DNA of 64,000 nucleotides from a bacterium (GTDB lineage Bacteria; Zhuqueibacterota; QNDG01; JAFGCO01): positions 119,364-183,363 of the forward strand of contig JAFGCO010000007.1 of NCBI GenBank assembly GCA_016932575.1, written 5' to 3'. A model generated the notes under the pieces. The model worked only from the letters and a program-made list of their open reading frames with translations. It made no database searches and was not told the origin of the DNA. The position numbers and the translations under genes are program-made. This document shows, piece by piece, positions 27,658-59,550 of the stretch (the stretch's first letter is position 1; every line of letters begins with the position of its first letter).

Positions 27658-27661
27658 GACA

Positions 27662-27818
27662 TTTTCCTTCTCAGCTGATCAAACCATTTCTTATTTTTTC
27701 TTTCTTGCTTCTTGTTTCTTGTAACACAACGACACAAATGACTCTTTTCTCTCCGTTTCTCCCGTGCTCCGTTTCTTATTTCTTGTTTATTGACTCTTGA
27801 TTCTGTTTCTTCGCACTT
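27662..27818. repeat. Intergenic mosaic of degenerate short repeats (partial copy)
   Basis: This spacer between the DUF5683 and HD genes is built from the same words as the three long mosaics at 54-58 kb: TTTCTTG-type repeats (27700-27720 and 27776-27810), a CTCCGTTTCTCCCGTGCTCC segment near 27753-27772, and ACTCTT words. On the minus strand it begins about 10 nt after the stop codon of the DUF5683 gene. Confidence 0.75.
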
Positions 27819-28316: not shown

Positions 28317-28600
28317 TCGGTTATATATTCATTTTTTGATTCATAAATTGTATTGTCTCTTGTCTCTGCTCCTCGCGATCAAATGACTCTTTCTATCGAC
28401 TGCAAACCACGGACAGTAAATAAACCAGTAGATGGGTAAATGAGTTGATGATTCTCCCCCCCCTTTCACCACCCAATATGCATATTGAATTTGTTTCTCA
28501 GGCGTCAGGGATGGAAGAAACTCATCTACCCATCTACTCTCAACTCAAAGACTCTACAATCCTATGACTCTAAGACCCAATGACTCTATGACTCTACGAC
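28317..28600. repeat. Intergenic mosaic of degenerate short repeats with an internal inverted repeat
   Basis: The spacer between ridA and the DUF5683 gene holds GTCTCTTG words, a CGACTGCAAACCACGGACAG segment, and a dense GACTCTATGACTCTACGACT run (28541-28600). Inside it, 19-nt arms AGTAGATGGGTAAATGAGT (28427-28445) and its complement at 28520-28538 (one mismatch) flank 74 bp that includes a run of C. The GACTCT run continues across the stop codon of ridA at 28594. Confidence 0.75.
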
Positions 28601-28983
28601 TCTGCCTCTGCAATACATTCGATTTCTATAAGTACATCTTTCGGCAGCCTGGATACTTCCACAGCCGAACGTGCCGGGGGACACTCATCAAAATACTCAG
28701 CATAAATCTGATTCATGGCTGGAAAGTCATCCATATTCTTTAAAAAAACCGTAGCTTTGACCACTCCATAGAGTCCGCTACCCGCCGCTTTCAGTACTGA
28801 TCTCAAATTTTCAAGAACCTGACGCGTCTGTACCCGGATATCTTCCTCAACAATGTTTCCGGTCTCAGGATCGATGGGAATTTGCCCGGCTGTAAATATC
28901 AATCCTTCTTTCAGTTTGACTGCCTGGCTGTAAGGACCAATGGCTTTTGGTGCGGCTTCTGCTGATATAATCTCTCTTGTCAA
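28594..28983 (-). CDS. ridA: RidA-family enamine/imine deaminase
   Basis: 129 aa, usual length. RidA hydrolyses reactive 2-aminoacrylate-type enamines made by PLP enzymes. Conserved segments are [41 protein letters not shown] and, near the C-terminus, [20 protein letters not shown] with the substrate-binding arginine in ARSAVEV. The start is TTG at 28983 with GGAGG 7 nt upstream. The last two codons and stop (Glu-Ser-TAG) fall inside the GACTCT repeat of the next spacer. Confidence 0.93.
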
Positions 28984-52828: not shown

Positions 52829-53452
52829 TTAATCCTTATCAATCAGAGCCAGCCTTAATCCCAATCCAACAAGTACACTGCCTGTGAGCACATTGAGCCT
52901 TCTGCACAGCTTTTGTTTTGTCAAAAGCCATCCTCCCACCTGTCCCGAAAAATAACCCAATGCCACCAGAAAAATAACACCGAACAGGGCAAAAAGACTG
53001 CCCAATATCAGCATTTGCAGTGCGGAATTGCCTGCATCACGAGAAACAAACTGTGGTAAAAATGCCAGAAAAAACAACGCGACTTTCGGATTGAGGACAT
53101 TGGATAACATTCCCTGGATAAAAATGGACCGATACCGCATGGTCCGGGATTTGCCGGCAAATGAAAAACCGGCCTTGTCCTTGAATGACTTGATTCCTAA
53201 AAAAATAAGATAGCAGGCACCGCCAAACTTCACAATGGTAAATGCCAGAGACGATGTCATTAAGATCATGGCCAATCCCATAGAAGCAAAAAGAGTATGG
53301 ACAAGAATCCCGATGGTCACACCAAGCGCTGAGACCACACCCGCCTTCCGGCCCTGAGCGATCCCCCGCGTCATTACATAAATCATATCCGGACCCGGCG
53401 TGATAATTAAAAGCCAGGACGCTGCTGTAAAAATCATCAATTGATCAAACAT
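52829..53452 (-). CDS. LysE/RhtB-family amino-acid exporter
   Basis: 207 aa from ATG 53452 with GGGAG about 5 nt upstream. The frame is open to a TTG at 53488 without a ribosome site. Six hydrophobic helices; family marks are WLLIITPGPDMIYVMTRGIA and GVTIGILVHTLFASMGLAMI, then FGGACYLIFLGIKSFKDK. These inner-membrane proteins export amino acids or their derivatives; substrate unknown. It is downstream of panC with a gap of about 32 nt. Confidence 0.9.
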   Translation of the reverse strand: MFDQLMIFTAASWLLIITPGPDMIYVMTRGIAQGRKAGVVSALGVTIGILVHTLFASMGLAMILMTSSLAFTIVKFGGACYLIFLGIKSFKDKAGFSFAGKSRTMRYRSIFIQGMLSNVLNPKVALFFLAFLPQFVSRDAGNSALQMLILGSLFALFGVIFLVALGYFSGQVGGWLLTKQKLCRRLNVLTGSVLVGLGLRLALIDKD

Positions 53453-53484
53453 CATCACTCCCGATTCATATTTCTCTTTATTTC

Positions 53485-54330
53485 TCAAACCTCTAAAATG
53501 ACATTGTCGATCAGCCGGGTTTTACCTGCAAACACGGCCAAAACAGCCACGGCCCGGTCTTCAATCACATCCAGATTGTGTAAATCTTCCGGATGCACAA
53601 TTTGAATATAATCAATCTTTGTATGGGTTTTGGAACGGATCAATTCTGTCATTTCCCGGATCAGGTCAGCAGACTTCCGATGACCCTGCCGGACCTTGTC
53701 TTCGGCCAGCTTCAATGCTGCATGAAGTGAAAGGGCATCTTTTCTTTCTTCAGCAGAGAGATACGCATTCCGCGAACTCATGGCCAATCCGTCCTCCTCC
53801 CTGACAATCGGGGCAACAATAATATTCATATCAAAATTCAGATCCTTCACCATGCGCCGGATCACCACGCTCTGCTGATAGTCCTTCTGTCCAAAAACGG
53901 CAAAATGCGGGTTTATCACATGAAAAAGTTTGGCACAGATCGTGGTCACTCCTCGAAAATGTGTAGGACGCGATGCGCCGCACAGAATTCCGGTAATATC
54001 ATCCACTGTCACATAAGTCAAATGCTCTTTTGAATACATCTCCGTATCAGATGGAAAAAAAATGATGTCAGCTCCTTCCCGGGTTGCGAGCCTTGCATCC
54101 CGTTCAATATCCCGCGGATATTGTTCAAAATCCTCATTCGGGCCAAACTGAGCGGGATTCACATAAATCGAAATGACAACCACATCCGCCTGCCGGCAGG
54201 CCGTCCGAATAAGGCTGAGATGCCCCTCATGCAAATATCCCATGGTAGGCACAAATGCGATCTTTTTTCCATCCATGCGCAGATGGCCCGACAGGGTTTG
54301 CATTTCCTGAACTGTCCTGATAATTTTCAT
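53485..54330 (-). CDS. panC: Pantothenate synthetase
   Basis: 281 aa, usual length. It joins pantoate and beta-alanine with ATP in vitamin B5 synthesis. Motifs are VPTMGYLHEGHLSLI (HxGH adenylate site), YVNPAQFGPNEDFEQYPR, HFRGVTTICAKLFHVINPHF, FGQKDYQQSVVIRRM and AMSSRNAYLSAEER (SSRN loop). No strong ribosome site is seen before the ATG. panB and panD are not in the window. lysE-like gene follows on the same strand. Confidence 0.96.
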   Translation of the reverse strand: MKIIRTVQEMQTLSGHLRMDGKKIAFVPTMGYLHEGHLSLIRTACRQADVVVISIYVNPAQFGPNEDFEQYPRDIERDARLATREGADIIFFPSDTEMYSKEHLTYVTVDDITGILCGASRPTHFRGVTTICAKLFHVINPHFAVFGQKDYQQSVVIRRMVKDLNFDMNIIVAPIVREEDGLAMSSRNAYLSAEERKDALSLHAALKLAEDKVRQGHRKSADLIREMTELIRSKTHTKIDYIQIVHPEDLHNLDVIEDRAVAVLAVFAGKTRLIDNVILEV

Positions 54331-54380
54331 TTAAGGTGTCCCATCTGTTCCTTCATTCTGACAATACACAGTCTCTGATT

Positions 54381-54983
54381 ACACACGATCCATCAAGGAT
54401 ATGTTTTGTTTCTTTTGATCCTATGACTTGATGCCAAAATGATTCAAAGACTCAAGGACTCTATGATCCTATGACGCATCCTAAAGACCGCAGACGGCTG
54501 ACCGCGGACAGCAGACCATCGGAAAATCACAAATTCCAAACACACTTTTCTTTGTTTGGGATTTTGATCATTGGAATTTGGAATTTATTTGTCATTTGGA
54601 TTTTATTATTTGGAATTCTTTCACCACCAATTCACAGGTTCTCTTTGTCTTTTATCTGTGTTATTCTTCCCTCTCCGTTTCTCCCATGCTCCGTTTCATC
54701 GATCCAGTCTCTCTCAACCAACGACTCTACGACTCAACATTTCCTCTATATCCCTTATATCCCCTATTTCCCCTTGTGTGCTTTTTATTTCTTGTATTCC
54801 TGTTTCTTGTGACTCTACTACCCAATGACTCTTTCTCCCTTATTTCCCCTATATCCCGTTACTGGCTGCTTCTTACTTTTTGCATTATTTTTTAACTAAA
54901 CGACCCAATGACACATACCCTATTTTATTACCATATTACCCAATTACCCTATTACCATTTTTTATTTCTTGCTTCTTGACCCA
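54381..54983. repeat. Intergenic mosaic of degenerate short repeats (copy 1 of 3 long copies)
   Basis: This 650-bp spacer before panC has no supported gene. On the plus strand the modules run in the order GACTCTATGATCCTATGAC; ACCGCGGACAGCAGACC; a core with CACACTTTTCTTTGTTTGGG and a TGGAATTTGGAATTTATTTG run (54523-54600); TTCTCTTTGTCTT; CTCCGTTTCTCCCATGC; CGACTCTACGACTC; CCTTATATCCCCTATTTCCC; TTTCTTG words; TATTACCCAATTACCC. Small plus frames here are by-products of low complexity. Confidence 0.85.
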
Positions 54984-55388
54984 TTACTCTTCCTTCACAT
55001 CCGTTGCAACCACCATTTTCTTAATTCCGCTTTGCTTAATCATATCCATCACTTCCACGACCAACCCGTAATGAACCTTCTCATCTGCATGCAGTACAAG
55101 ACCCTCTTCTTCAATCTCATTCGCAATTTCCTTAAGCCGGGCTCCAAGATTCTTGAACTCAACTGCTTCTTCATTGAGAAATAATTTTTCATCCGGTGTC
55201 ACGAAAAGCGTGTATCCCTCCATTCGCACAGTCTCTTTCTGCCGTGTTCGCGGTAAATCCAGTTTCATGCCCGGCCGTTCTAAGAATGTTGATGACACCA
55301 TAAAAAATATTAGCAGCAGAAACAGCACATCGATTAACGAAGTAATATTAATCATCACACGTTTTCTTGATTTTTCACGAAACTGCAT
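54984..55388 (-). CDS. ExbD/TolR biopolymer transport protein
   Basis: 134 aa with one N-terminal transmembrane helix (MINITSLIDVLFLLLIFFMV) containing the conserved Asp20 used for proton coupling. A periplasmic domain (about 50-134) ends VVATDVKEE. It partners with ExbB/TolQ to energise TonB or Tol systems; no ExbB/TolQ gene is in the window, so its partner lies elsewhere. AGGA is about 6 nt before the ATG. It sits alone between two short-repeat mosaics. Confidence 0.9.
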   Translation of the reverse strand: MQFREKSRKRVMINITSLIDVLFLLLIFFMVSSTFLERPGMKLDLPRTRQKETVRMEGYTLFVTPDEKLFLNEEAVEFKNLGARLKEIANEIEEEGLVLHADEKVHYGLVVEVMDMIKQSGIKKMVVATDVKEE

Positions 55389-55439
55389 GGACTGTCCTAA
55401 ATTAAGTGATCAGATTTACCGGGCTTCTAAAGTTGCCGA

Positions 55440-55919
55440 CTCATTGGGATATCCGGTATTGTGTCTTTTTATTGTTTCTTGTTTCCTTGTTTCTTTTAAT
55501 CCATTTCTCCGTTTCTCCCTTTCTCTGGTTCAACGTTTCTGTTTCCAGACCGTGGACAGCAGACCGAAGACCGTAATAAAATCACAAATAACAAAACACA
55601 AATATCAAACACACTTTTCTTTGTTTGTGATTTTGGTCATTGGAATTTGAAATTTATTTGTCATTTAAATTTTGTCATTTGTAATTTTAAATTTATTTAC
55701 CACCAATCTATATGTTTTCTTTGTCTTTAATACTACCCTCTCAACTTGTATTTCTTGATTCATTCAACAACCATTCAACATTTTATTACCATATTACCCA
55801 ATTACCATATTACCATCAGTTTTCTGTTTCTTACTTCCTGTTCCTTGTTTCTTGTCTCTTATTTCTTTTCTCATGCGACTCTAAAACTCTGCGACTCAAC
55901 AACAATCCTGCCTCCCGCT
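55440..55919. repeat. Intergenic mosaic of degenerate short repeats (copy 2 of 3 long copies)
   Basis: Spacer between rtcB and exbD. Contains TTGTTTCTTGTTTCCTTG words, a GACCGTGGACAGCAGACC module, the conserved core (55578-55650), and TATTACCATATTACCC and CGACTCT words near rtcB. The core has inverted arms AAAATCACAAA (55578-55588) and TTTGTGATTTT (55624-55634). No supported gene. The first 50 bp after exbD (55389-55439) are not repetitive. Confidence 0.85.
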
Positions 55920-57377
55920 TCATCCCTTCACCACCCCAAGAGGCCGCATCCGGGCCACCTTACGGGAAAGGCCGGCATTGTGTACAATATTGACCACATG
56001 GGTGATATCTTTGTAAGCTTCCGAAACCTCTTCCTGCAGGGTTCGCTTTCCACGGCTGCGCACCACAATCCCTTGATCTTCCAATTCCCGGATGAGCATT
56101 CGACCCTGGGTCAATCGAACAGCGGCATGACGGCTCATCACCCGTCCTGCACCATGACAGGTTGATCCCAGACTTTTCTCCATGGCCTGATCTGTGCCCA
56201 CCAGTACATAAGAAGATGTCCCCATATCTCCGGGAATAAGCACTGGCTGACCCGTTAGAAGGTATTTCTGTGGCACGCCCGGCTGCCCGGGGCCGAAGGC
56301 CCGTGTGGCTCCTTTGCGGTGTACCATCAGGCTCTTTTTTTCTCCATGGATCTGATGCGTCTCGGGCTTGGCAATGTTATGGGCCACATCATAAACCAGA
56401 TGCATTCCCATCTGCTCCGGAGACCGGCCCATCACTTTGCAAAATGTTTCTCTTACCCAGTGCATGATCAGCTGCCGGTTGGTCCAGGCATAATTGGCCG
56501 CAGCAGCCATGGCTGCAAAATAGGCTTCTCCTTCCGTCGACTGAACCGGTGCACAGGCCAGCTGTCTATCCGGCACCCGGATCTTATATTTTTGCATGGC
56601 TTTTTCCATCAAATCAAGATAATCATCACAGACCTGGTACCCCAGTCCTCGGGATCCGGTATGAATCATAACGGTAATTTGTCCCTTGCTTAATCCGAAA
56701 ACTTGGGCTGCAGAGGGATTAAAAATCTCTACAACCTCCTGGATTTCCAGAAAATGGTTTCCTGATCCCAGCGTGCCTAACTGCGGACGCCCCCGCTCCA
56801 TGGCCCGTGAGGAAAGTGCTTTGGCGTTGGCTCCAGCAAAACAGCCCTCTTCTTCAGTAAATATTACATCTTCATTCCATCCGAATCCCTGTTCCACCGC
56901 CCATGCCGCTCCTCGTTCCAAAACATTCTTAAGGTCTTTTTGTGATAATTGCATTCGCCCGCTGGATCCCACGCCGCACGGAACATTCTGAAACAATCCG
57001 TCAACCAGCTCCTTAATTTTGGGCTGGATATCGCATAGTTTCAACTGCGTCCTTACAAGACGCACCCCGCAGTTGATATCATACCCAACACCACCCGGAG
57101 AAATCACGCCTTCTTCCACATCCAGACCGGCGACCCCGCCTATAGGAAATCCATATCCCCAGTGAATGTCCGGCATGGCCATCGAATGTTCTACAATTCC
57201 CGGAAGATGGGCCACATTCACTACCTGCTGTGGCGCCTGGTCCCCCCGAACCTGTTTCAGCATCTCCTCGTCAGCGAAAATCAATCCCGGGACTTTCATG
57301 CCCCGTGCAAAATCTGTAGGGATACGCCATCGGTAATCATCAATTTTTTCCAGCAGTCCATTCCAGGGCTGCGCCAT
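55920..57377 (-). CDS. rtcB: RtcB-type RNA ligase
   Basis: 485 aa, usual length. It joins RNA 2',3'-cyclic phosphate and 5'-OH ends with GTP and manganese. Conserved segments: GGVAGLDVEEGVISPGGVGY then DINCGVRLVRT (metal Cys), GTLGSGNHFLEIQ, IHTGSRGLGYQVCDDYL, GDMGTSSYVLVGT and the guanylylated His in CHGAGRVMSR; ends RPLGVVKG. AAGGAG lies 5 nt before the ATG. No archease or rtcA/rtcR gene is nearby. Both flanks are repeat mosaics. Confidence 0.96.
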   Translation of the reverse strand: MAQPWNGLLEKIDDYRWRIPTDFARGMKVPGLIFADEEMLKQVRGDQAPQQVVNVAHLPGIVEHSMAMPDIHWGYGFPIGGVAGLDVEEGVISPGGVGYDINCGVRLVRTQLKLCDIQPKIKELVDGLFQNVPCGVGSSGRMQLSQKDLKNVLERGAAWAVEQGFGWNEDVIFTEEEGCFAGANAKALSSRAMERGRPQLGTLGSGNHFLEIQEVVEIFNPSAAQVFGLSKGQITVMIHTGSRGLGYQVCDDYLDLMEKAMQKYKIRVPDRQLACAPVQSTEGEAYFAAMAAAANYAWTNRQLIMHWVRETFCKVMGRSPEQMGMHLVYDVAHNIAKPETHQIHGEKKSLMVHRKGATRAFGPGQPGVPQKYLLTGQPVLIPGDMGTSSYVLVGTDQAMEKSLGSTCHGAGRVMSRHAAVRLTQGRMLIRELEDQGIVVRSRGKRTLQEEVSEAYKDITHVVNIVHNAGLSRKVARMRPLGVVKG

Positions 57378-57415
57378 CGCTACTCCTTTTTATTCATCAT
57401 GATTATGATTTTCCT

Positions 57416-57808
57416 GCAGACTGCAGATCACGCATTGAAACTCACTAAAAAATTTAAATCACAAATAACAAGACACAAATATCAAACACACTTTTCTTTG
57501 TTTGCGATTTTGGTCATTGGAATTTGTACTTTTATTTTGTCATTTGGATTCTGTCATCTGGAATTTTAAATTTATTCACCACCAATCCATGCGTTCTCTT
57601 TGTCTTCTGTCTATCTTTATCTTTCCTCTCCGTCTCTCCCATGCTCCGTTTCAGCATTTCAATGAACGACTCTATGGCCCTGCGACACAATGACTCAAAG
57701 ACTCTACGACCCGGGGACTCTATGACTCAACAACGACAACATTTCCTCTGTATTCCTTATATCCCCTATTTCCCCTTGGTTCTTATTTCTTGTTTCTTGT
57801 CTCTTGAT
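57416..57808. repeat. Intergenic mosaic of degenerate short repeats (copy 3 of 3 long copies)
   Basis: Spacer between the nitrilase and rtcB genes. Modules in order: CTGCAGACTGCAGATCACG; conserved core (57457-57528) nearly identical to copy 2; TTGTCATTTGG words; CTCCGTCTCTCCCATGC; GACTCTATGACTC words; CCTTATATCCCCTATTTCCC; TTTCTTGTTTCTTG. The last module continues into the 3' end of the nitrilase gene. Confidence 0.85.
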
Positions 57809-58589
57809 ATAACTCTTCTCTCCGGTCTTCCCACAAATCATTACGGCTGGTGATGTGCTTGTTTCTTGCCAGGGTCACATCAATCCTGACGGTCTTCACG
57901 CCCTCTTCTTCAGAACCAAATTGAATCATCCGGTTGCCGCTCGGATCCGTCACCTGACTAAGGCCGGTAAAATTCAATGGTGATTTTCCTCCCCTGGCCT
58001 CACAGCCGATCCTGTTGGCAGTGGCCGTGAATACCCGGTTTTCAACAGATCGGGTAATCATGGCATCCGGACAAAAAGGGAGCACCAGATTGCTTGGATG
58101 GCATATTAAATCAGCACCGGCAAGGGCCAGAGACCGGGCTGACTCCGGAAAAATCCAGTCAAAACAAATCATCATGCCTACTTTTGCAGGTCCAAGATCC
58201 CAAACCTGGAAGCCTTCTGTGCCTGGTTGAAACCATAATTTCTCTTCATCGAACAGATGTATCTTGCGATACGTGCCGATATACCCCTCCGGGCCAAGAA
58301 GTACGGATGTATTATAACAGTCATCGCCGTTCCGTTCACTAACACCCGCTGCAATATGCATCTTTTTTCTCCGGCAGATGGCCATTAATCGCCGTGTCGA
58401 CTCACCGTCCGGTATGGATTCGGATAAATCATGCACTTCTTTCCTGCTGATGAATTGATATCCGGTAGTGCATAACTCAGGAAGCACCAAGAGATCCGCA
58501 TCAACATGAGTAAGGACGTTTTCGATACGGTTTAGGTTGTATTCTTTTTCCCCGAATTTTGAAAAAAACTGAAAAATCCCGATTTTCAT
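57783..58589 (-). CDS. Carbon-nitrogen hydrolase (nitrilase superfamily)
   Basis: 268 aa from ATG 58589 with AGAG 6 nt upstream; the frame is open to 58616. The catalytic Glu-Lys-Cys triad is present: Glu in VLPELCTTGY, Lys in GTYRKIHLFDEE, Cys in MICFDWIFPESAR. The fold and length match omega-amidases, N-carbamoyl-putrescine amidases and related amidases; the substrate is not clear. The last codons (Gln-Glu-Thr-Arg-Asn-Lys-Lys-stop) are written by the AAGAAACAAG repeat of the adjacent mosaic. Confidence 0.88.
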   Translation of the reverse strand: MKIGIFQFFSKFGEKEYNLNRIENVLTHVDADLLVLPELCTTGYQFISRKEVHDLSESIPDGESTRRLMAICRRKKMHIAAGVSERNGDDCYNTSVLLGPEGYIGTYRKIHLFDEEKLWFQPGTEGFQVWDLGPAKVGMMICFDWIFPESARSLALAGADLICHPSNLVLPFCPDAMITRSVENRVFTATANRIGCEARGGKSPLNFTGLSQVTDPSGNRMIQFGSEEEGVKTVRIDVTLARNKHITSRNDLWEDRREELYQETRNKK

Positions 58590-58665
58590 TGAATACTCTT
58601 TCAGATTGAAGCTCATCCCGGATTCAAATGGAATCTTTCCCGATTTTCATAAAAGGATTAAAGCC

Positions 58666-59550
58666 TCAGCTCCAGCTGGCAAGATCATTTACAGTATACT
58701 TCGGCACGGCCCCTTTTTTAGTGGCAGTAAAAGCGCCGACACGATTGGCGAATTCTCCGGTCTCCTTCAGAGATGCGCCGCTTAAAAGTTTTATGATCAT
58801 TCCACTCACAAATGCATCACCGCACCCGGTCATGTCAACCGCTTGCACTGCTTCACCGGCAATCCGAACACATTCGTTGGCATCGACCAGCACGCATCCT
58901 TCTGATCCCAGAGTCAAAGCGGCAACCTGAATCTGATATTCCTGAAGCAGCCATGATAAAAAGGCTTCCTGCGAAAGAGATTCCTGACCAAATGCCCGGC
59001 GGATCTGATTCAGCTCTTCATCATTCATCTTCACAACATCGATTGTCTTTAATGTGTCCCGGATGATGGATTCAATCCCCTCATGCCATCCCCGGAAATT
59101 TACATCGAACACTTTAAGAGCAGATGTCGCCATGTTCAAAAAATGCTGAATGGTGGTTCTGGATTCTTTCTGTCGCTGTGCCAATGTGCCTACTGCCACG
59201 GCGTCACAGGTTGCCGCCAGATTCTCAAGGCCGCTCTGCCAGACCAGATGATCGAATGCTGTATCTTCACTGCATTCAAAATGGGGGCAACCGTCTGCAT
59301 CCAGATTGATTTTCACTTTTCCGGTGCCATACATAATATTCTTCTGAATATACCGGACATCCCCGCCCATTGTCTGAACCTGAAGAATCAATTCGTCCCC
59401 GTCTCTGTCAAATCCCACAGCGCTGACAATCACACCACATGCGCCCATTTGCGCAGCGTGCAGAGCCGCATTGGCGGGTGCGCCGCCGACTGTTCTGCTG
59501 TCCGGATAGATATCCCACAATACTTCACCCAGACCAACCACGGTTTTCAT
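58666..59550 (-). CDS. PfkB-family sugar kinase, fructokinase-like
   Basis: 294 aa from ATG 59550, which overlaps the stop of the M50 gene as ATGA. N-terminal VGLGEVLWDIYPD and GGAPANAALHAAQMG bind the sugar; the C-terminal DMTGCGDAFVSGMI holds the catalytic Asp and anion hole; VKMNDEELNQIRR is also typical. The GEVLWD start is common in bacterial fructokinases and 2-keto-3-deoxygluconate-type kinases; substrate unproven. The nitrilase gene follows on the same strand after about 75 bp. Confidence 0.88.
   Translation of the reverse strand: MKTVVGLGEVLWDIYPDSRTVGGAPANAALHAAQMGACGVIVSAVGFDRDGDELILQVQTMGGDVRYIQKNIMYGTGKVKINLDADGCPHFECSEDTAFDHLVWQSGLENLAATCDAVAVGTLAQRQKESRTTIQHFLNMATSALKVFDVNFRGWHEGIESIIRDTLKTIDVVKMNDEELNQIRRAFGQESLSQEAFLSWLLQEYQIQVAALTLGSEGCVLVDANECVRIAGEAVQAVDMTGCGDAFVSGMIIKLLSGASLKETGEFANRVGAFTATKKGAVPKYTVNDLASWS

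Follow-up and report, generated by a model that had tools for sequence, protein, structure and literature searches.

The window analysed here is a 64,000-nucleotide stretch of contig JAFGCO010000007.1 (assembly GCA_016932575.1) from a bacterium of the phylum Zhuqueibacterota, and our subject is a long, word-structured composite repeat that fills three neighbouring gene spacers between positions 54381 and 57808. The original prediction held that the three spacers carry the same modules in largely the same order, and the copies indeed align as one ordered composite repeat, with local alignment scores of 152 (copies 1 and 2), 225 (copies 1 and 3) and 218 (copies 2 and 3) against shuffled maxima of 39, 32 and 36, respectively (200 dinucleotide shuffles for each pair). 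The features concerned, in window coordinates, are as follows.

54381..54983, + strand: copy 1 of the composite repeat, filling the panC-exbD spacer (best profile span 54434-54809, 288.9 bits)
54895-54984, + strand: further 3' piece of copy 1 (profile match, 24.1 bits)
54523..54620, + strand: quasi-palindromic heptamer core of copy 1, matched by the profile on both strands
55440..55919, + strand: copy 2 of the composite repeat, in the exbD-rtcB spacer (best profile span 55526-55865, 199.1 bits)
55574..55720, + strand: core of copy 2, used as search query; includes GATTTTGGTCATTGGAATTTG, present in about ten phyla
57416..57808, + strand: copy 3 of the composite repeat, in the spacer between rtcB and the carbon-nitrogen hydrolase gene (profile spans 57414-57714, 198.8 bits, and 57703-57810, 64.6 bits)
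57455..57580, + strand: core of copy 3, 88% identical to the copy 2 core
57783..57808, - strand: TTTCTTG-word array entering the coding end of the carbon-nitrogen hydrolase gene (C-terminus ...ELYQETRNKK*)
27658..27818, + strand: further spacer with TTTCTTG, GAC and CTCCGTTTCTCCC words (sequence, word scan)
28317..28603, + strand: further spacer with ATCTAC words and a GACTCTAY 8-mer array (sequence; tandem repeats of periods 8/16/24)
53485..54330, - strand: flanking gene, pantoate-beta-alanine ligase (PanC; PF02569, E=3.1e-107)
54984..55388, - strand: flanking gene, ExbD/TolR (PF02472, E=1.8e-31)
55920..57377, - strand: flanking gene, RtcB RNA ligase (PF01139, E=2.5e-181)
57783..58616, - strand: flanking gene, carbon-nitrogen hydrolase (PF00795, E=1.9e-43)

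The copy 2 core recovers copy 3 at E=2e-46 and copy 1 at E=2e-28, in agreement with the claim that the cores of copies 2 and 3 are nearly identical and that copy 1 is related to them. The predicted module list stands as to order, but copy 3 has only a weak form of the GACC-GC module that is strong in copies 1 and 2. Likewise, the three spaces are mostly intergenic as proposed, except for a few bases of copy 3 that overlap the C-terminal end of the carbon-nitrogen hydrolase gene. Copy 3 also contains a duplicated block of four words at 57668-57730, with a period of 32.

The window is one part of a host genome of 4.41 Mb in 72 contigs, in which the 147-base copy 2 core matched 75 stretches. Host stretches totalling 822 kb were sampled around matches, with genes called by dicodon score; because the stretches were picked in this way, their repeat density does not extrapolate to the genome. 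Seeding an iterated profile search of this sample with a single copy led to a consensus of about 500 bp, which matches at 78 places that do not overlap; 48 of these score >=60 bits. Read in the + direction of the window, the consensus starts with TTTCTTG words, GACTC words, AGACCGC words and CAAATnnC words, continues with CACTTTTCTTTG, TTTGnnATTTGG words, CACCACCAATCCATACG, TTCTCTTTGTCTT and CTCCGTTTCTCCCATGC, and ends with GACTC words, TATCCCCTATTTCCCC and TTTCTTG words. Across 33 host spaces, 474/574 module pairs were concordant in order, against 361.6±10.1 (maximum 404) in 500 shuffles of runs within each space, and unrelated host spaces align collinearly over 300-540 bp at 60-78% identity. 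We show, therefore, that the host repeat is a dispersed non-coding composite with a fixed module order, as had been predicted; the two outcomes named beforehand as pointing to local low-complexity drift, namely a lack of further copies and a random module order, were looked for and neither occurred. Many copies sit at contig ends, and the word arrays therefore probably break assembly. One such end (L004:1-90) is a 10-base tandem array, (GAGTAGAAGA)n. A second dispersed host repeat, CTCCCTTATCTCCCCTTGAGGGGAGACCC...GTCAGCCGAGGAAGAGGGGTGTAAATTT, was seen within word mosaics at L004:100-220 and L010:1690-1830, beside TAAATGAGTTGATG and ATCTACTC words.

The modules were first described as degenerate words of 5-13 nt, a description that has to be replaced, since each module holds a strict period of 7, 8 or 9. 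TTTCTTG, AGACCG and the core are 7-nt modules; GACTCTAT, TTACCATA and CTCCGTTT are 8-nt modules and TATCCCCTA is a 9-nt module. Successive words are spaced at 7/14/21 for TTTCTTG, 7 for AGACCG, 9 for TATCCC, 8/16/24 for CTCCGT and 8 for TTACC, and 95/100 GACTC spacings fall at 8/16/24. Core words fall at 7/14 and, in a second class of spacings, at 11/18/25, which equals 7k+4. Genes have no comparable concentration of spacings, except for a few GACTC words. Expansion of words by slippage, also proposed earlier, is supported though not proved by these whole-word registers, together with a difference of 29 bp, or about four heptamers, between the spacers of two sister species (see below).

The core consists of TTTTGGTCATTGGAATTTG flanked by heptamer arms and is a quasi-palindrome, its profile hitting both strands at one position. 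Across the family as a whole, palindromy is modest, with a mean z of -1.5 both for the host copies and across phyla and a value near 0 for Elusimicrobia. A core maintained as a hairpin would need its arms to covary within each copy; in three genomes (G000, G082 and G085), the arms of a copy pair no better with each other than with swapped arms, and a selected hairpin in either DNA or RNA is thus not supported. Arm pairing between genomes showed a weak excess (17/25), and single-strand DNA folding of the cores was ordinary, with a best z of -1.95.

The orientation of the repeat is tied to its flanking genes. In the 42 host spaces between co-directional genes, the words lie antisense in 39 and sense in 3 (p=6e-9), the antisense strand being the C-rich, G-poor one (C 22.0%, G 12.7% on the element strand). 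Orientation by profile was 53:10, a count in which the strand of fragments is ambiguous because the core is palindromic. In 7/7 cases of flanking genes that run counter to the surrounding 20 kb, the repeat is oriented by the flanking genes; the link is therefore to genes, and replication strand is not supported as its cause. The median distance from the upstream stop codon to the start of the repeat is 26 bases, with frequent overlap (-56 to 0), and the repeat ends a median of 164 bases before the downstream start. Several upstream proteins carry word-encoded C-terminal tails (...YQETRNKK*, NKETGIKK and SQETRDKKQEIGIKGK; window 57783-57808, L011 and L013).

Such a placement could reflect a functional RNA element, in which purine-rich words after the stop codon would serve as multivalent sites for an RNA-binding protein of the Hfq, S1, cold-shock or CsrA type, with orientation selected for that function. 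The tracking of flanking genes even against the neighbourhood direction, the location at the 3' end of the upstream gene and the strict word registers are all in line with this explanation, and the same idea has been put forward for TAACTGA repeats (PMC4679880). Nevertheless, we consider it unlikely, given that per-copy compensatory pairing is lacking, that the outer word is missing from related genomes, that word sets turn over between sister species, that the core takes the opposite orientation in other genomes and that Rfam offers no match.

We also examined the occurrence of the repeat in other genomes. The outer word GACTCWAYGACYCWAYGACTC, allowing <=2 mismatches, has 155 matches in the host against 0 for the reversed control; the other genomes of the host phylum that were compared, 68 in number and all from outside its genus and family, together have 4, and by these counts the outer GACTC word is lineage-specific. 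The core is distributed differently. The exact 21-mer GATTTTGGTCATTGGAATTTG occurs in 36 contigs of GTDB genomes, whose carriers comprise Desulfobacterales and other Deltaproteobacteria, KSB1, Chloroflexi, Latescibacterota, Aminicenantes, Elusimicrobia, Acidobacteria, Tritonobacter and several Patescibacteria. A 19-mer of the core (<=2 mismatches) has 568 matches over 23 of these genomes, against 2 for the backwards pattern, an excess that holds against composition only, because the reversed control preserves base composition and not word content; one Aminicenantes genome alone contributes 240. Less selected samples placed the core in 21/69 genomes of the host phylum, in 16/286 genomes of the phylum of a Yanofskybacteria genome that itself has 25 matches against 0, and in 21/148 genomes of the phylum of a Deltaproteobacteria genome that itself has 89 against 3. 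Hence, the distribution of the core is patchy, yet the core is multi-copy in many carriers. Phages, plasmids and E. coli were dropped as core carriers, as searches of these collections returned no recognisable core and only short matches (best E 0.5 to 6). In IMG/VR, the 21-mer had 0 matches and a 17-mer was found in 5 contigs, which is estimated to be about the chance number.

The likeness of cores between phyla extends beyond the 21-mer. Using one copy per genome from 22 genomes, we found that TTT recurs past the 21-mer at offsets 22-23, 29-30, 36-37, 43-44 and 50-51 (82-100% T), and that the 21-mer is preceded in 8/22 genomes by CAAATGTTCAAAAC or something close to it, against 0/22 for the reversed form. 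After GGAATTTG there is a four-base jump, TTTGTTT in other phyla and TTTATTT in host copies 1 and 2, which agrees with the 7k+4 spacing class of the host. These observations are evidence that the cores across phyla belong to one family, although homology is hard to prove because the words are of low complexity. Convergent drift would explain the same likeness without homology, each lineage building T/G- and purine-rich words by slippage. The words are indeed short and simple, the outer word is private to the host lineage, and, among long simple repeats, heptamers are given as the most frequent in prokaryotes (Mrazek et al. 2007, as cited in PMC4679880). We find convergence improbable, however, in view of an identical 21-mer in about ten phyla, the 568 matches against 2, an arm register kept for about four more heptamers, the left-arm CAAATGTTCAAAAC upstream of the 21-mer and the fixed module order in the host. 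The reading of the core that we put forward tentatively, at somewhat below an even chance, is that it represents an undescribed family of quasi-palindromic, heptamer-structured intergenic elements in many phyla, multi-copy where present and not recognisable in the phage, plasmid and E. coli collections. It would be generated and spread by a copying system, while each lineage would have added outer word arrays of its own and transcription would set the orientation. The palindromic core, the gene-linked orientation and the presence in other phyla had all been missed in the original prediction.

Comparison of sister species shows that both the word arrays and the core itself come and go. In one orthologous spacer, G041 carries the core in a 187-base gap, and the 81-base spacer of G033 holds a TATCTTC heptamer run. 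In a second, between a tRNA gene and thrS, the word array begins directly after the tRNA gene in both species (L141:1380-1500 and L222) and is 29 bases (about four words) shorter in G033. Between genomes G015 and G019, which were compared for an empty site, synteny breaks at the repeat.

The proposal that the repeat spreads as a unit is demonstrated directly only in an Elusimicrobia genome, where six copies share >=200 bases of similarity and have unrelated flanks; for the host, it is an inference from the collinear alignments. Five of these six copies carry, at the same place in the left arm, an insert of paired G+C-rich palindromes, CAGCCCATCTCCAGATGGGCTG and GCCCTTTTGAAAAAGGGC (L190, L191, L194, L195 and L196), and one is without it. 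Since copies at unrelated sites share the insert, this unit was copied along with it. Three metagenome-assembled genomes of Desulfobacterales contain near-identical copies of a unit of about 400 bp that encloses the core and resembles a miniature inverted-repeat transposable element (MITE), with ends TAGTGC...GTGTCTC / GAGACGGGGCACTA and, in several cases, CTAG on its flanks (core match +/- 300 bases at L040, L041, L042, L048, L050, L051, L056, L059, L066 and L071). Terminal inverted repeats and target duplication, the traits of a MITE, were found only for this unit. The core is also present in Desulfobacterales without the MITE ends (L075) and therefore looks like a passenger in the unit. These units, their defined ends, the Elusimicrobia unit copied with its insert and the 9 Y1_Tnp matches in the host could suggest that the host repeat is itself a non-autonomous transposon of the MITE or REP type, moved in trans by a Y1/RAYT or DDE transposase. 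We give this explanation little credence, since host copies have no visible terminal inverted repeats, target duplications or sharp ends, the Desulfobacterales core occurs without MITE ends, and the number of cores shows no correlation with the number of Y1 transposases (Spearman 0.08, p=0.52, 69 genomes). The last result leaves RAYT/Y1 transposases unsupported as the driver.

The explanation we lean towards, at just short of an even chance, is that the host repeat is a dispersed, non-autonomous composite of about 500 bp in which whole-word slippage, spread of the unit and filtering of orientation by selection act together. Words would grow and shrink by whole-word slippage during replication, and the unit might reach new spacers by template switching at the quasi-palindrome or through a transposase acting in trans. 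Selection would mostly retain copies that have the C-rich, G-poor strand antisense to the genes on either side. Rho typically loads on untranslated RNA that is C-rich and G-poor, as at rut sites; we propose that the antisense orientation may be retained because such a sequence in the mRNA would load Rho and cut off downstream genes. Tolerated copies would end up at gene 3' ends, where they would be neutral mRNA spacers rich in purines and might also stop antisense transcription. Several observations weigh against this explanation. The host copies show neither target duplications nor sharp ends, no empty site was shown in the host itself, the comparison containing no genome of its genus, and the comparison with Y1 number identified no mobility machinery. 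In addition, the orientation bias is not general, as copies in Elusimicrobia are 5:0 sense and the named and phylum loci pooled give 17:9.

The repeat was originally set apart from all known families. This stands for REP, ERIC and BIME but overlooks the heptamer repeats, namely the short tandemly repeated repetitive (STRR) sequences of cyanobacteria, the TAACTGA repeats and the elements of Geobacter. REP/BIME and ERIC sequences, which are likewise dispersed intergenic palindromic repeats, are G+C-rich, stem-loop-defined and 20-40 or about 127 nt long, and RAYT-linked REP/BIME carry a conserved GTAG-type tetranucleotide. The present repeat is instead A+T-rich, 100-500 nt long and word-structured, its consensus of about 500 bp consisting of A+T-rich words with no defining stem-loop. 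A covariance-model search with Rfam 15 over 53000-59000 gave a best E of 0.24, far below the gathering score. The nearest known kind is the heptamer repeats, such as STRR. Reportedly, STRR heptamers were described in heterocystous cyanobacteria by Mazel and colleagues in 1990, and small dispersed repeats are said to have been found inside STRR arrays by Elhai and colleagues in 2008. Tandem degenerate 7-nt words of several types per genome are found in the spacers here as in STRR, and both have other small repeats inserted; the present repeat differs in its single fixed order of 7-, 8- and 9-nt modules, its quasi-palindromic core, its gene-linked orientation and the phyla that carry it. By eye, none of the cyanobacterial STRR words compared matches the present ones.

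TAACTGA direct repeats (MacGregor 2015, PMC4679880) are also heptamer arrays in spacers, sporadic in distant lineages, and show 7-nt indels between close strains and repeat-free spacers in close relatives. They are arrays of 2-6 copies of one exact word, found for the most part directly upstream of start codons, whereas the present repeat is composite, runs to hundreds of bases, begins at gene 3' ends and uses different words. The same paper cites Mrazek et al. (2007) for the view that 7-nt words favour polymerase slippage. In Geobacter metallireducens (PMC2700814), dispersed multicopy elements are built from tandem words of 7 or 8 nt, four or five per element and partly in opposite-strand pairs; they differ from the present repeat in their words, are short and single-module, and also lie within genes. 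None of the heptamer systems compared describes a fixed-order composite, a gene-linked orientation this strong or this core. The core sequence was in no paper searched, a search that left out most subscription journals, so that priority cannot be judged.

Word mosaics of this kind fill the spacers of uncultured bacteria and are usually dismissed as low complexity. The fixed order, strict word lengths, gene-linked orientation and presence of the core in about ten phyla indicate that they form a definable class. The repeat also creates spurious short open reading frames and adds C-terminal tails to proteins, and it probably causes contigs to break in metagenome assemblies. Should the core be one family, some agent would have to copy it within and between distant genomes, and the orientation bias would be a natural experiment on how the composition of the untranslated strand, for example through Rho loading, shapes spacers.

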